Source of the DNA: Planctomycetaceae bacterium
GTDB taxonomy: Bacteria; Planctomycetota; Planctomycetia; Pirellulales; UBA1268
Assembly (NCBI GenBank): GCA_021300535.1
Contig: JAJTED010000009.1
Span: forward strand, 1 to 47,712
Reading direction: 5' to 3'
DNA length: 47,712 nt
This document shows, one piece after another, positions 14,672-21,302 of the stretch; positions within the stretch are counted from its first letter, which is position 1; each line of letters begins with the position of its first letter. Below the pieces are notes generated by a model. The model ran no database searches. It worked only from the letters and a program-made list of their open reading frames with translations, and had not been told where the DNA came from. The translations under genes and the position numbers were made by a program.

Positions 14672-14734
14672 GGCGACACATTCCTGCGAGACGAACCGGA
14701 GTCGGGCCGCGATTTTAACTGTCCGGCCCGGCCC

Positions 14735-14918
14735 AAGAAGCCCCGGGTGGAAACCCGGAGACTCCGGGCACGAACACCATCCCACCGTCCATGCCGCAAA
14801 CGCCCACCGTCCATGCCGCAAACGCCTCGCGCCACTGCTGCGCAACGTCCACATGCATGGCACGCGGGATCGCCATTCGACCCGGTGTCCCCCGGCTTCC
14901 GCCGGGGGCTTTTTGTGG
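14735..14918 (+). repeat. REPIN-like element E1
   Basis: This is a pair of inverted palindromic ends around a core. The left end has a CCCCGGGT-GGAA-ACCCGG hairpin and the right end a perfect CCCCCGGC-TTCC-GCCGGGGG hairpin followed by CTTTTT. The reverse complement of the right end aligns with the left end (AAgAAGCCCC...GGAAxCC...GGACwCCGGG). The core contains a 22-bp tandem duplication (14781-14802 and 14803-14824) that is absent from the other copies. Confidence 0.85.
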
Positions 14919-14938
14919 GAGCGTAGCGCGCGTGGCCC

Positions 14939-15098
14939 AAGAAGCCCCGGGTGGAAACCCGGGGACTCCGGGCATGAACACCATCCCACCGTCCATGCCG
15001 CAAACGCCCCGCGCCACTGCTGCGCAACGTCCACATGCATGGCACGCGGGATCGCCATTCGACCCGGTGTCCCCCGGCTCCCGCCGGGGGCTTTTTGT
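14939..15098 (+). repeat. REPIN-like element E2
   Basis: A second copy in the same orientation, 204 bp after E1. The left end is a perfect CCCCGGGT-GGAA-ACCCGGGG hairpin and the right end a CCCCCGGC-TCCC-GCCGGGGG hairpin with a CTTTTT tail. The core matches E1 except that it lacks the 22-bp duplication. It lies 25 bases downstream of the hypE stop and may also terminate that transcript, since the left end read on the - strand gives a GC-rich hairpin followed by CTTCTT. Confidence 0.88.
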
Positions 15099-15123
15099 GG
15101 ACAATGGCCGAGCAGGCGTGTCT

Positions 15124-16206
15124 TCAGCACATCCGCGGCAACTGCTCGCCGATCGGCATGGGCACGATTCGCGTGCCGCCGAGCGCCGTTCGCATGGCGA
15201 CCAGGCCCGGATGGGCGGCGACGACCCGCCCGAGCCGCACGGCATCGCGGCCATGCTCGTGTCGCCGCATCGCCCCCAGCACCGGGTCGGCATGGGTGGC
15301 GGGCACCACGGCGAGCAACTTGCCCTCGTTGGCGACGAGCAGCGGATCGAGGCCGAGCAGTTCGCAGGCCGCGGCCACCGGCGAGGCGACGGGGATCGCC
15401 TCCTCGTCGATCTCGATCCCCACCCGCGCGAGCGTCGCGATCTCCGCGAGGCTCGTCGCCACCCCACCGCGGGTCGGATCGCGGAGCATCTTCAAGTCGC
15501 GGCAGACGGAGAGCATGGCGGCGACGAGCCCATGCAGCGGGGCCGTGTCACTCGAGATCGGGGCGTCGAACTCGAGCCCGTCGCGCACGCTCATCACCGC
15601 CATGCCATGGTCGGCGAGCGTGCCGCTGACGAGCACGACGTCGCCGGGCCGCACCCGCTCGGGCCCGAGGGCCACTCCCGGCGGCACGATCCCGATGCCG
15701 GCGGTGTTCACGTAGCAGCCGTCGCCGTGACCACGTTCCACGACCTTCGTGTCGCCCGTCACGATCGCGACGCCGGCCGCCCGCGCCGCCCGCGCCATAC
15801 AGCCGGCAATCTCCGCGAGCTCGGCGATCGGCAATCCTTCCTCGATGATGAAGGCGGCGGTCAGCCACAACGGCCGGGCCCCGCTCATGGCGAGGTCGTT
15901 GACGGTGCCGTTGACTGCCAAATCGCCGATCGTGCCACCGGGAAACGTCAGCGGACGGACGACATAGGAGTCGGTGGAGATCGCCAGCCGGCCGCCGCCG
16001 GCGAGCAGGTCCGCCGCGTCGAGCACACACGAATCACCAAGCCGGTCGAGGACGGGATTCGCGAACGCCGGCAGGAACACCTGCTCGATCAGCTCGTGCG
16101 ACAGCGTCCCGCCCCCGCCATGCCCGAGAATTACCCGCTCCCGCTCGCGCACGGGCGTCGGACATACGAGTCTCGCCACGTCGATCGCACCGCCGGCGTC
16201 AGCCAT
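15124..16206 (-). CDS. hypE: Hydrogenase expression/formation protein HypE
   Basis: A 360-residue AIR-synthase-like HypE. It has the glycine-rich start ILGHGGGGTLSHELIEQVF, the ATP-binding region STDSYVVRPLTFPGGTIGDL, and the characteristic C-terminal PRMC, whose cysteine accepts the carbamoyl group from HypF and is dehydrated to thiocyanate. With HypF it produces the cyanide ligands of the [NiFe] active site. The start at ATG 16206 is supported by GAGAGGGTG just upstream. A 228-base gap separates it from hypD, so it could have its own promoter or follow read-through. Confidence 0.97.
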   Translation of the reverse strand: MADAGGAIDVARLVCPTPVRERERVILGHGGGGTLSHELIEQVFLPAFANPVLDRLGDSCVLDAADLLAGGGRLAISTDSYVVRPLTFPGGTIGDLAVNGTVNDLAMSGARPLWLTAAFIIEEGLPIAELAEIAGCMARAARAAGVAIVTGDTKVVERGHGDGCYVNTAGIGIVPPGVALGPERVRPGDVVLVSGTLADHGMAVMSVRDGLEFDAPISSDTAPLHGLVAAMLSVCRDLKMLRDPTRGGVATSLAEIATLARVGIEIDEEAIPVASPVAAACELLGLDPLLVANEGKLLAVVPATHADPVLGAMRRHEHGRDAVRLGRVVAAHPGLVAMRTALGGTRIVPMPIGEQLPRMC

Positions 16207-16434: not shown

Positions 16435-17525
<1,091 letters not shown>

Positions 17526-17529
<4 letters not shown>

Positions 17530-17813
17530 GCGGAGGACGAGGCAGCGTCCGGATCGCTGGTGGCCCGGAGTTCGGCCAGTTCCTCCTCCAGGCGGCCGAT
17601 CTCGGCGAAGGTGCGGAGCGTGGCCCGGGCCGCGGCCTCGTCGAGCCGGCCAATGGCGAAGCCGACGTGGACGATGGCGTAGTCGCCGACGGCGATGCCG
17701 GGCACGGAGACCAGGCACACGTCCTTGAGCACGCCGCCGAAGTTCAGGCGGCCCATCCGCACGCCGGCCTCGACGCGGATCGATTCGACACGACCCGGCA
17801 CGGCGAGGCACAT
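17526..17813 (-). CDS. hypC: Hydrogenase assembly chaperone HypC
   Basis: A 95-residue HypC/HupF chaperone. The essential N-terminal cysteine is at position 2 (MCLAVPGRV), and the family segment [18 protein letters not shown] follows. ATG 17813 was chosen because HypC needs Met-Cys at the N-terminus; a GTG codon lies directly upstream. The ATG shares one base with the stop of the preceding small gene, and the stop overlaps hypD. HypC binds HypD and delivers the iron unit to the large-subunit precursor. The C-terminal tail (about 20 residues, acidic and Ala/Ser-rich) is longer than in typical HypC. Confidence 0.97.
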
Positions 17814-18219: not shown

Positions 18220-18705
18220 TCAGCATTTTCCGGCCGCGAGCGGGGCCAGCCGCGCGGCCAGCAGCTCGACCACGGCGTCGATGGCCCGATCGACCGCCGG
18301 CGACAGCTCCGCTCCCGCGTCGAACACCGCCCCTTCGATCAAAATCGCGGTCACCCGGTCCGGGCGGCCCTCGCGGAGCAACCAGCGGGCGAACGCCAGC
18401 GCATGGTCCCAGCGAAACGCGTGGAGGTTGATCCCCGCCGGCGGCGGCACGTTCGCCACCTCGGCCCCCGGCACCTCGAAGATCGCCCCGGGCTCGGCCC
18501 CCGTCTGACAGGCGTCGACGAGGATCACCTCCGGCACCCCCCGCATCTGGAACACCACGTCCATGCCCCCGGTGCCCCCGTCGGCACACCGCACCCCCTC
18601 CGGCAGGCCGCGGTTCCAGAGCCGGCGGACGAGCACCGGCCCGGCCGCGTCGTCGCCGCGCAGCGGGTTGCCGCAGCCGATCACGAGCACGCGGGTCGGC
18701 GGCAT
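18220..18705 (-). CDS. Hydrogenase maturation protease (M52, HyaD/HybD-like)
   Basis: A 161-residue nickel-dependent endopeptidase of the HyaD/HupD/HybD family. It has the N-terminal GCGNPLRGDDAAGP motif with the acidic metal ligand, a second aspartate in ILVDACQTGAEPG, and the histidine in GINLHAFRW. These three match the Ni-sensing residues known for HybD. It removes the C-terminal extension of the large subunit after nickel insertion. The gene starts 4 nt after the 49-codon gene carrying a hydrogenase C-terminal motif, which is therefore its obvious substrate in this locus. Confidence 0.94.
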   Translation of the reverse strand: MPPTRVLVIGCGNPLRGDDAAGPVLVRRLWNRGLPEGVRCADGGTGGMDVVFQMRGVPEVILVDACQTGAEPGAIFEVPGAEVANVPPPAGINLHAFRWDHALAFARWLLREGRPDRVTAILIEGAVFDAGAELSPAVDRAIDAVVELLAARLAPLAAGKC

Positions 18706-18709
18706 GGCA

Positions 18710-18859
18710 TCAGCCTCCCGTGCCCAGGCGAAAGGCCGGACGTGCGCGGCCGGTCTTGCCGTCGTCGGCGTGCGCCGTGCACACGAGGCACGAATCGAAC
18801 GACCGGGCCAGGTGCCCCATCTCGACGCCCAATGACGGGTGCCAGAGAAGGGTGGCCAT
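18710..18859 (-). CDS. 49-residue stand-alone C-terminus of a [NiFe]-hydrogenase large subunit
   Basis: The product contains the Ni-ligating C-terminal motif of large subunits in RSFDSCLVCTAH (residues 19-30; the usual DPCxxCxxH with serine in place of proline). A 19-residue tail follows (ADDGKTGRARPAFRLGTGG) that matches the extension removed by the protease. The rest of a large subunit (about 450 or more residues with the N-terminal RxCGxC motif) is missing here and is not found anywhere in the window. The gene has its own ATG with a GGAG site seven bases upstream, starts 28 bases after the UreH-like gene, and ends 4 nt before the protease gene. It may be a genuine split subunit, as known for VhuU in Methanococcus voltae, or the relic of a deletion that fused a start to the end of a lost gene. 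Confidence 0.75.
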   Translation of the reverse strand: MATLLWHPSLGVEMGHLARSFDSCLVCTAHADDGKTGRARPAFRLGTGG

Positions 18860-18887: not shown

Positions 18888-19550
18888 TCAGAGCCCGAGC
18901 CGCACGAGCACGCCGCAGGCGAGGATCGCCAGGCCCGCGAGCACATCAGCGCAACGGGCCAGGCGCGGGAGCCGCACGAGGCCGGCGGCATGCCGCATCG
19001 CCCACACGGCCGCCACCATCGTGGCCAACGTCGCCGCACCGAAGGCCGCGATCACCGCCGCCACCGCCCCGCCGCTCGCCCGCGCGGCGGGGAGCATGAC
19101 CAGCGGGATCAGCGGCTCGCAGGGCCCGAAGACGAACACCAGAAACGCAGCCCACGGCGGCCAGACCGACGCGGCCGCCACGGCACCGGCAGCCGGGTCC
19201 CCGTCACGGTGCATGGCCGCCCGCCGCCAGCCCCAGGCGACCAGGACGACGCCGCCGAGAATCAGCAGCCAGGCCGCGACGGCGCCGCGCGCCGACTCGA
19301 TCGGCTCGAACCGCGCTGCCGCGAGCCCGAGGGCCAGGCCGGCGATGCCGAGCATGACGGAGCCGGTCAGGTGCCCCAGCCCACATGCGAGCGTCACCCG
19401 CAGTGTCTTCGCGGTCGACCAGCCGCCCGCCCTCGCCATCGCCACGAACGGCACGTAATGGTCGGGACCGAGGAGCGTGTGCATCGCGGCCACCGATCCG
19501 GCCGTCAGGCACAGCGCGGCGGTCTCGGTGGCGGCGACGGCGGCGGACAT
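18888..19550 (-). CDS. UreH/NicO-like membrane protein, probable nickel permease
   Basis: A 220-residue membrane protein with about six hydrophobic helices. The first helix carries AAMHTLLGPDHYVPFVAMA, similar to the HxxxxDH signature of NicO/UreH-type nickel transporters, and the second carries ACGLGHLTGSVMLG with another histidine. A further helix has FVFGPCEPLIPLVML. The family (sulfite exporter TauE/SafE-like, UreH branch) is often found beside urease or hydrogenase genes, so Ni2+ transport for the hydrogenase is the best guess. It is the first gene of the - strand maturation operon, divergent from hypA. Another cation or sulfur substrate remains possible. Confidence 0.75.
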   Translation of the reverse strand: MSAAVAATETAALCLTAGSVAAMHTLLGPDHYVPFVAMARAGGWSTAKTLRVTLACGLGHLTGSVMLGIAGLALGLAAARFEPIESARGAVAAWLLILGGVVLVAWGWRRAAMHRDGDPAAGAVAAASVWPPWAAFLVFVFGPCEPLIPLVMLPAARASGGAVAAVIAAFGAATLATMVAAVWAMRHAAGLVRLPRLARCADVLAGLAILACGVLVRLGL

Positions 19551-19789: not shown

Positions 19790-20167
19790 ATGCACGAACT
19801 GTCCATTGCCGCCAGCATCGTCGAGCAAGCCACCGAACACTGCCGCCGCGCGGGCGGCACGCGGGTGACCACGATCAGGCTGCGGATCGGCCGGCTGGCC
19901 GGCATTCACCCCGCGGCCCTCCGCTTCGGCTTCGATCTCGTCGCCGCCGACACGCCGCTGGCCGACGCCACGCTCGCGATCGTGGACGTGCCGGTCCGGG
20001 TCTGGTGCCCGGCCTGTTCCGCCGAGGTCGAGCTGCCGGGCCTGCAGCGGTTCGCATGCCCGGGGTGCGGCCTGCCTACCGGCGAGATCCGTGCGGGCCG
20101 GGAACTGGAGATCGAGTCGCTGACCCTCGAGGGCCACGGCCAACCCGCCCAGGAACCCGTCCGATGA
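19790..20167 (+). CDS. hypA: Hydrogenase nickel incorporation protein HypA
   Basis: A 125-residue HypA. The nickel site is the N-terminal MHELSIA (Met1, His2, Glu3). The structural zinc site is formed by two CxxC pairs, Cys73/Cys76 (CPAC) and Cys90/Cys93 (CPGC). It accepts nickel from HypB and inserts it in the large-subunit precursor. The stop overlaps the hypB start by four bases (ATGA at 20164-20167), so the two are coupled. Confidence 0.97.
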   Translation: MHELSIAASIVEQATEHCRRAGGTRVTTIRLRIGRLAGIHPAALRFGFDLVAADTPLADATLAIVDVPVRVWCPACSAEVELPGLQRFACPGCGLPTGEIRAGRELEIESLTLEGHGQPAQEPVR

Positions 20168-20847
20168 GCATCCCCCGGATCCTCGAGGTGCGCACGAGCA
20201 TCCTGAAACGCAATGACGCGGTCGCCCGCGACCTGCGGCGCGACTTCACCCGCCACGGCGTGCTCGTCGTGAACATGGTGTCGAGCCCGGGAACGGGGAA
20301 GACGGCGTTCCTGCTGGAAACGCTGCTGCTTCTACGGCGGCGCGGGGCGACCGTGGCGGCGGTCGTGGGCGACCTCGAGACCGACAACGACGCCCGTCGG
20401 CTAGCCGCCTCCGGTGCGCCGGTCCGCCAGATCAACACCCACGGCCTCTGTCACCTCGAGGCCGACATGATCCGCACGCACGTCGCCGACTGGGATCTCG
20501 CGGGGCTCGACTACCTGTTCATCGAGAACGTGGGCAACCTCGTCTGCCCGACGAGCTGGGACCTCGGCGAGTCGCTGCGGCTGGCCTTGCTCTCCGTAAC
20601 CGAGGGCGAGGACAAGCCGCTCAAGTACCCCGCCCTCTTCAACACGGCGGACGTCGCGGCGCTCACCAAGCTCGACCTCGCCGCAGCCTGCGGCTTCGAC
20701 GCCCCGCTCGCGCGGGCCAACATCGCCGCCGTGCGGCCCGGCATGCCGCTCGTGGAGACCTCGGCCCGCACCGGGGCGGGGCTCGACGCGTGGCTCGACC
20801 TGCTGACTGCCCGCCGCCACCGACTCCTGACCCCCGCGCGGGAATGA
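20164..20847 (+). CDS. hypB: Hydrogenase nickel incorporation GTPase HypB
   Basis: A 227-residue SIMIBI-class GTPase. The P-loop is SSPGTGKT (residues 40-47), the metal site between subunits is in THGLCHLEADM (Cys96, His97), and a TKLDL guanine-specificity motif follows. The N-terminal CxxCGC nickel site and His-rich storage stretch of some HypB proteins are both absent, so this is the short form. It releases nickel to HypA on GTP hydrolysis. The start was chosen at the ATGA overlap with hypA; the frame is open further upstream but only in shadow of hypA. Confidence 0.96.
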   Translation: MSIPRILEVRTSILKRNDAVARDLRRDFTRHGVLVVNMVSSPGTGKTAFLLETLLLLRRRGATVAAVVGDLETDNDARRLAASGAPVRQINTHGLCHLEADMIRTHVADWDLAGLDYLFIENVGNLVCPTSWDLGESLRLALLSVTEGEDKPLKYPALFNTADVAALTKLDLAAACGFDAPLARANIAAVRPGMPLVETSARTGAGLDAWLDLLTARRHRLLTPARE

Positions 20848-20971
20848 CTGCCCGTGCCCCACGCCTCTCCCGTGCCCCACGCCTCCAGGCGTCCGTCTTT
20901 CGATGGTTAGCGGAGGAGTTCAGCGGAGCGTCGCCGACCCGTGAACAGGGGATCGGTCCCGTCACCGGCCC

Positions 20972-21130
20972 AAGAAGCCCCGGGTGGCAACCCGGGGACT
21001 CCGGGCACGACAACCATCCCGCCGTCCATGCCGCATGACTCCCCGTGATTTCCGGTTCAAACCCACATCGCATGGCACCCGGGATGGAGATGCAACCCGG
21101 AGTCCCCCGGCTTCCGCCGGGGGCTTCTTG
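20972..21130 (+). repeat. REPIN-like element E3
   Basis: Same architecture and orientation as E1/E2. The left end is a perfect CCCCGGGT-GGCA-ACCCGGGG hairpin and the right end is CCCCCGGC-TTCC-GCCGGGGG followed by CTTCTTG. The core differs from E1/E2 but shares CCATGCCGCA and the CACATCGCATGGCACCCGGGA block. It lies after hypB and could terminate its transcript. Confidence 0.87.
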
Positions 21131-21143
21131 GGGACGGCGCGAC

Positions 21144-21302
21144 AAGAAGCCCCGGGTGGCAACCCGGGGACTCCGGGCACGACAACCAGCCCGCCGTCCA
21201 TGCCACATGACTCACCGTGATTTCCGGTTCAAACCCACATCGCATGGCACCCGGGATGGAGATGCAACCCAGAGTCCCCCGGCTTCCGCCGGGGGCTTCT
21301 TG
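21144..21302 (+). repeat. REPIN-like element E4
   Basis: Almost identical to E3 and 172 bp further on, so E3/E4 look like a recent tandem duplication. The right arm ends 82 bases downstream of the hypF stop (hypF runs on the - strand), so the element separates converging hypB and hypF transcripts. Confidence 0.87.

Follow-up and report, generated by a model that had tools for sequence, protein, structure and literature searches.

A 49-codon reading frame with a hydrogenase nickel-binding motif is very probably a deletion relic of a Huc-type uptake hydrogenase

Described systems and layout of the locus

In eroding operons, structural genes are lost by deletions between short repeats and the downstream genes are kept. 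A C-terminal Ni-binding motif may also be carried by a short stand-alone open reading frame (ORF), as in Methanococcus voltae, where VhuU reportedly acts as a separate tiny C-terminal subunit. VhuU is described as a selenocysteine-containing subunit of Vhu (PMC2933860). Cleavage by hydrogenase maturation proteases is stated in a review to depend on Ni in the large subunit (PMC12134894). The group 2a hydrogenase Huc of M. smegmatis is represented by solved structures (7UTD, 7UUS, 7UUR) and provides the closest comparison for the locus described here.

The window analysed comprises 47,712 nucleotides of contig JAJTED010000009.1 of a Planctomycetaceae bacterium (assembly GCA_021300535.1; 4.01 Mb, 197 contigs, 86% complete). 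A sequence-only reading had described a mini-ORF at 18710-18859 with its own GGAG and ATG, a Ni-binding motif, a 19-residue tail, and spacings of 28 nt from the end of a transporter-like ORF and 4 nt to the start of an M52 protease gene. All of these features were confirmed, and the strand, absent from that description, is minus. The encoded peptide, MATLLWHPSLGVEMGHLARSFDSCLVCTAHADDGKTGRARPAFRLGTGG, starts from an ATG at 18859 and carries the motif RSFDSCLVCTAH followed by the tail ADDGKTGRARPAFRLGTGG. The locus is composed as follows, genomes of the genus being given G numbers (G000 for the window's own) and named loci L numbers:

19790..20847, plus strand: hypA and hypB, divergent; hypF lies beyond
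18888..19550, minus strand: transporter-like membrane protein with a weak DsbD_2 match; a homologue lies just upstream of the G012 small-subunit gene, and it is also found in L087
18870-18867, minus strand: GGAG ribosome site of the mini-ORF, read as the small-subunit gene's own; GGAGGACGATCATGGCCACGCTTCTCTGG in G013 and G009
18859-18710, minus strand: probable relic ORF, 49 codons and TGA, two hucS-type small-subunit pieces fused to a hucL-type large-subunit 3' end
18220-18705, minus strand: M52 hydrogenase maturation protease (PF01750, E 3e-13), the only PF01750 match found in the genome
17813..18163, minus strand: probable second relic, HucE-like N-terminal part of 116 residues, Rieske part missing; its stop overlaps the hypC start
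17526..17813, minus strand: hypC, start ATG at 17813
16435..17529, minus strand: hypD, start read by eye
15124..16206, minus strand: hypE

The transporter-like protein, lying beside hydrogenase genes, is possibly a metal transporter. Repeats of 90-160 nt were also observed in the window at 14730-15100 and 20971-21302, the second pair with inverted arms. A 19-mer taken from contig C99, in sequence resembling these repeats by look, occurs 280 times in the 4.0 Mb genome (145 and 135, with up to one mismatch) and its reversed control not once; the repeats bearing it are possibly a dispersed REP-like family.

Origin of the pieces and of their junctions

Profile searches gave little. A Pfam scan returned no match at E up to 1, and the NCBIfam matches, to the VhuU model and to two models of large subunits, were weak and fell far below the cut-offs. 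Among solved structures, the best match was the M. smegmatis Huc large subunit (7UTD, residues 12-30, E 8e-5 by phmmer), followed by the Huc small subunit (7UUR, residues 4-20, E 0.09), a match that is weak alone and is borne out by the small subunits of the genus, which start MATLLWLQGGACSGNT, then DVLWHPSLGMEMGDHV or close variants. The peptide was also matched in 8 of 21 other genomes of the genus (E 8.6e-15 to 6.7e-7), and a chance motif was rejected on these matches together with that to 7UTD. A plasmid search with the region gave 11 records at 66-82% identity, the matched stretches being annotated as proteases, a large subunit and a 'cytochrome-c3 hydrogenase'. In a scan of a contig collection with exact patterns from the 49-residue peptide, none of 356 pattern matches was confirmed; this negative carries little weight, as the relatives within the genus (64-67% identity) present in the same collection were missed.

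Comparison with the genes of the genus resolved the mini-ORF into three pieces. Residues 1-7 and about 5-13 correspond to two separate places near the start of the Huc-type (group 2a) small subunit, and residues from about 11 to 49 to the end of the Huc large subunit:

18841..18859, minus strand: small-subunit codons 1-7, 18 of 19 nt identical to G013 and G008; first junction within CTCTGGC
18822..18847, minus strand: small-subunit codons 39-47, 85% identity to G012; second junction within GAGATGGG
18713..18827, minus strand: 3' end of the large-subunit gene, codons from about 502 to the last, with RSFDSCLVCTAH and the 19-residue tail

From codon 502 of the large subunit onward, the DNA identity is 82-87%. 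About 13 small-subunit and 38 large-subunit residues are thus kept; set against a Huc large subunit (a chain of about 540 residues with a RICGIC motif and a C-terminal DSCxxCTxH), the C-terminal part only is present and the first ~500 codons are absent. The large subunit, with MATV at its own beginning, was considered as the source of the start and dropped, as residues 4-20 match the small subunit.

All three pieces share one reading phase and both junctions are in frame, so that the GGAG and ATG of the mini-ORF are the small-subunit gene's own and its stop is that of the large subunit. The ribosome site, which together with the orderly spacing had been read as favouring a functional gene, is explained by this inherited start. 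At the first junction, the 7 bases CTCTGGC are repeated within the small subunit of G009, and at the second, the 10 bases TGGAGATGGG are common to the G009 small and the G013 large subunit; such repeats in relatives are as expected from deletions between short direct repeats. Comparison shows the ancestral order to have been transporter, small subunit, large subunit and protease. One deletion occurred within the small-subunit gene between the CTCTGGC repeats and a second from the small-subunit gene to the end of the large-subunit gene, at GGAGATGGG, leaving 49 codons in one frame with the start of the first gene and the stop of the second.

The sequence-only reading had also held that the change from Pro to Ser in the DPC motif needed an explanation. 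The large subunits of G008, G012, G013 and G021 end RS[FY]DSCLVCTVH, followed by the tail, and that of M. smegmatis Huc ends RSFDSCLVCTVH, with Ser present. In a protease-anchored survey of named genomes, in which 80 of 128 confirmed loci were kept and 72 of the 80 had 450 or more of the 540 residues of the large subunit ahead of the protease, DSC was found in all 72 full-length large subunits. Ser is native to Huc-type large subunits and requires no special explanation.

States of the locus in related genomes

The genus contains intact, shortened and lost forms of the same genes. With its own genome included, 9 of 22 genomes match the mini-ORF at E <1e-5. The large subunit is full length in G008, G013 and G021, and that of G012 is cut by contig ends; the other five matching genomes (G000, G006, G009, G010 and G018) hold shortened Huc relics, with breakpoints that differ in all five. 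The G009 relic has kept its starts, with about 32 codons missing from the small subunit and two large gaps in the large subunit. No small subunit was found in G006, G010 or G018, and the native large-subunit start is also missing in all three; an in-frame ATG before the motif is lacking in G018, and in G010 and G006 the only ones are internal Met codons of the large subunit. The motif itself is changed from Asp to Glu in G010 and from His to Arg in G006. In G011, which gave no match to the mini-ORF at E up to 1e-3, a 17-codon ORF directly before the protease ends LHLFRIGEPA, which resembles the end of the large subunit, and its stop forms part of an ATGA overlap; we read this very short piece as a probable homolog of the large-subunit end.

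Across the family, 10 of 72 genomes (own included) match the mini-ORF, among them a 551-residue frame in G032, from another genus, and the free 49-codon form with a small-subunit start occurs only in the window's. The mini-gene, whose conservation in related genomes had been put forward as a check on its function, is thus not conserved. Eight of the 80 named loci fall short of full length: L062, L068 and L072, which are shortened, together with L067, were taken as G018, G009, G010 and G006; L080 stops at a contig edge; and no large subunit precedes the protease in L083 (where just 538 nt lie upstream), L084 or L087. The gene order in L087 is as in the window, with a divergent hypA, the transporter and then the protease directly, so that the mini-ORF is not needed there. 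A synteny series can be drawn from transporter, small and large subunit in G012 (where the passage from large subunit to protease lies on a second contig and was read separately), through transporter, mini-ORF and protease in the window, to transporter and protease in L087. Pieces of the ancestral genes are thus found in ancestral order and place, and other stages of the same loss are seen in G006, G009, G010, G018 and L087, and probably in G011.

Two further departures were observed within the genus. The protease homologue of G012 (L026, 1138-1788) has about 195 extra bases mid-gene, in frame, beside a large subunit that looks intact. In G010 (L031, 2590-10164), about 7.5 kb lie between the protease and hypC, of which the queries recognised only the C-terminal part of a Rieske protein.

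A misassembled junction, wrongly joining distant parts of a complete operon, might be suspected in a draft of 197 contigs. Usual assembly words are far longer than the 7-10 bp repeats at the junctions, and the relic carries substitutions of its own. Searches of the assembly (86% complete) with the G008 small and large subunits found no other Huc piece besides the mini-ORF. Such an artefact is already unlikely from the sister genomes, which appear to come from several projects and show other deletions with other breakpoints at the same locus; with all of this taken together, we regard it as very improbable.

It had further been proposed that the mini-ORF belongs to a split large subunit resembling the VhuU case, in which a large-subunit chain without its own end would receive two of its Ni cysteines from the separate peptide. 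The mini-ORF does have its own start and ribosome site, the Cys, Cys, His and tail are present, and a maturation protease adjoins it. However, a genome search for a large subunit lacking the C-terminal motif found none in the assembly (86% complete). The sole other large subunit matching PF00374, on contig C99, is complete at both ends and closes with its own motif (YDPCISCAAH and a 16-residue tail). In NCBIfam it comes closest to the models for sulfhydrogenase alpha subunits, without reaching their cut-offs, so that group 3b-like is a tentative label of ours; by eye the adjoining ORFs resemble small, flavin and iron-sulfur subunits. In addition, the N-terminus of the peptide is small-subunit sequence, the peptide reaches 14.5 bits with the VhuU model, whose cut-off is 70, and the sister relics lack starts or motif residues. 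A split subunit is therefore exceedingly improbable. The mini-ORF is, very probably, what deletions have left of a Huc-type (group 2a) uptake hydrogenase; that it could be the remnant of a deletion had also been suggested at the outset, and the small- and large-subunit pieces, the junction repeats and the differing relics of the genus bear this out.

Constraint and the genes retained around the relic

Over the last 37 codons, dN between the mini-ORF and five intact genomes (G008, G012, G013, G021 and G032) is 0.19-0.25, compared with 0.04-0.14 among those five. Hardly any change is seen in the relics of G009 and G010 (dN to G013 of 0.037 and 0.050, respectively), which are accordingly recent. 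The window protease has also evolved fast (dN 0.20-0.22 to intact genomes, compared with 0.09-0.15 between those genomes), and part of the excess in the mini-ORF may thus be lineage-wide. When dN is divided by that of the protease, using four intact genomes with G012 and G010 left out, the mini-ORF gives 0.97-1.14, the six intact pairs 0.32-0.66, G009 0.44-1.02, and G006 and G018 1.31-2.34. By these ratios the mini-ORF is under relaxed constraint relative to intact copies, less so than the worst relics, the counts being small. Ten residues differ from the intact consensus, one of them shared with G012; 2 of 18 lie up to the His and 8 of 19 in the tail (Fisher P 0.06), the motif half being less changed than the tail. 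Recent truncation or chance would account for this difference and for the two in-frame junctions, and at such small counts recent truncation and weak constraint on the mini-ORF cannot be told apart.

The 3' end of the large-subunit gene has a second content. In intact genomes the large-subunit and protease genes overlap at stop and start (TGATG in G013, ATGA in G021 and G012), as they also do in G006, so that the last large-subunit codons contain the protease initiation region. The window has lost the overlap, and a ribosome site lies inside the last relic codons, 8 nt before the protease ATG:

18714..18719, minus strand: GGGAGG, protease ribosome site, with a duplex energy of -13.1 kcal/mol compared with -6.1 in G013 and G021

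This architecture makes it quite possible that the ORF is kept because the amount of protease depends on its translation and that of its 3' end, irrespective of the peptide made, a role compatible with origin as a relic. The last large-subunit codons are kept before the protease in all six genomes of the genus (G000, G006, G009, G010, G011 and G018) that have lost Huc and have proteases at least 67% identical to that of the window, G011 being included by our own homology reading of a very short piece. Where the native start was kept, five of five junctions are in frame. Extended to every deletion in the genus, the in-frame pattern was weakened: 7 of 10 junctions are in frame among small- and large-subunit relics (P 0.02), and 8 of 14 (P 0.06) when the downstream genes of G009 are included, with 0 of 2 in G018, 0 of 1 in G006, 0 of 2 in the TPR gene and 0 of 1 in the 131-residue gene of G009. 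Moreover, the protease could be initiated from GGGAGG alone, an in-frame ATG is lacking in G018, and the only ones in G010 and G006 are internal. Large-subunit codons are also missing before the proteases of G014 and G019 (54% and 45% identical, respectively), and these two, with L087 and L084, manage without such a leader; L084, L087 and the relics without native starts show that it is not essential. A selected leader is a serious, if tentative, possibility. As a step in the loss of the operon, the 3' end would probably have been spared because it holds the protease ribosome site or the stop/start overlap, with the relic at most a translated leader, and taken on its own this step warrants similar caution. 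The 49-residue peptide itself would probably do nothing.

One protease each was matched by PF01750 in 12 of 22 genomes of the genus, own included, that of G012 falling below the cut-off. The window protease lies on a long branch together with that of G011 (support 0.875), intact Huc being absent from both genomes, and is perhaps adapting to another substrate. The long branch, with the Cys, Cys, His and tail kept, might suggest that the peptide has taken on a new role, for instance as a decoy substrate or in regulating the protease or Ni insertion. The Ni-motif peptide and its tail would then have been kept after loss of the enzyme to act on the protease, HypA or HypC, now serving only the group 3b-like hydrogenase, and would represent a step from enzyme subunit to maturation regulator. 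Since cleavage by such proteases is described as dependent on Ni in the large subunit (PMC12134894), the tail is the most diverged part, the sister relics are broken and L087 has no such ORF, both the general role and this specific form of it are highly doubtful.

The surrounding maturation genes were most likely retained for the remaining group 3b-like hydrogenase, which would need them. A second large subunit is present besides the relic in all of G006, G009, G010 and G018, which fits this proposal; G011 (94% complete) has the protease, hypC, hypD, hypE, hypA and hypB with no PF00374 match, which counts against it. The second scar lies on the other side of the protease. In G008, the protease is followed by a TPR protein, a 131-residue protein, a Rieske-domain protein and an NHL-repeat protein overlapping hypC, and the Rieske protein of G021 also has a NifU domain. 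A protein with Rieske and NifU domains resembles HucE of M. smegmatis (PMC6883350). The 116-residue HucE-like ORF of the window is 58% identical to that of G008 over about 104 residues, its N-terminal domain giving no Pfam match above cut-off, and the TPR, 131-residue and NHL genes are absent from the window locus. With the HucE-like gene cut down and these three gone, erosion has stripped the operon's structural part from around the maturation genes.

Comparison with known systems

As a lead the mini-ORF is ordinary, a real feature that reads as a well-resolved deletion relic of a known kind of hydrogenase. It illustrates that a deletion scar may come with a ribosome site, good spacing and an intact metal motif, all of them inherited, and that surveys of hydrogenase C-termini could wrongly include a relic of this kind. 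Within one genus, intact, partly deleted and fully or nearly fully deleted Huc-type states are found beside retained maturation genes, providing a case for the erosion of coupled operons.

VhuU of Methanococcus voltae shares with the mini-ORF a short stand-alone frame with a C-terminal Ni-binding motif; unlike VhuU, the relic has Cys rather than selenocysteine, has no end-less partner found in the assembly, is not conserved and falls below the VhuU cut-off. Huc of M. smegmatis is homologous to both kinds of relic piece and has the Ser natively, whereas the relic lacks the RICGIC motif and the rest of the enzyme. The pseudogenes of eroding operons show the same pattern as the mini-ORF, and the sole distinction found is that here the start of the first gene and the stop of the last have been fused in one frame.
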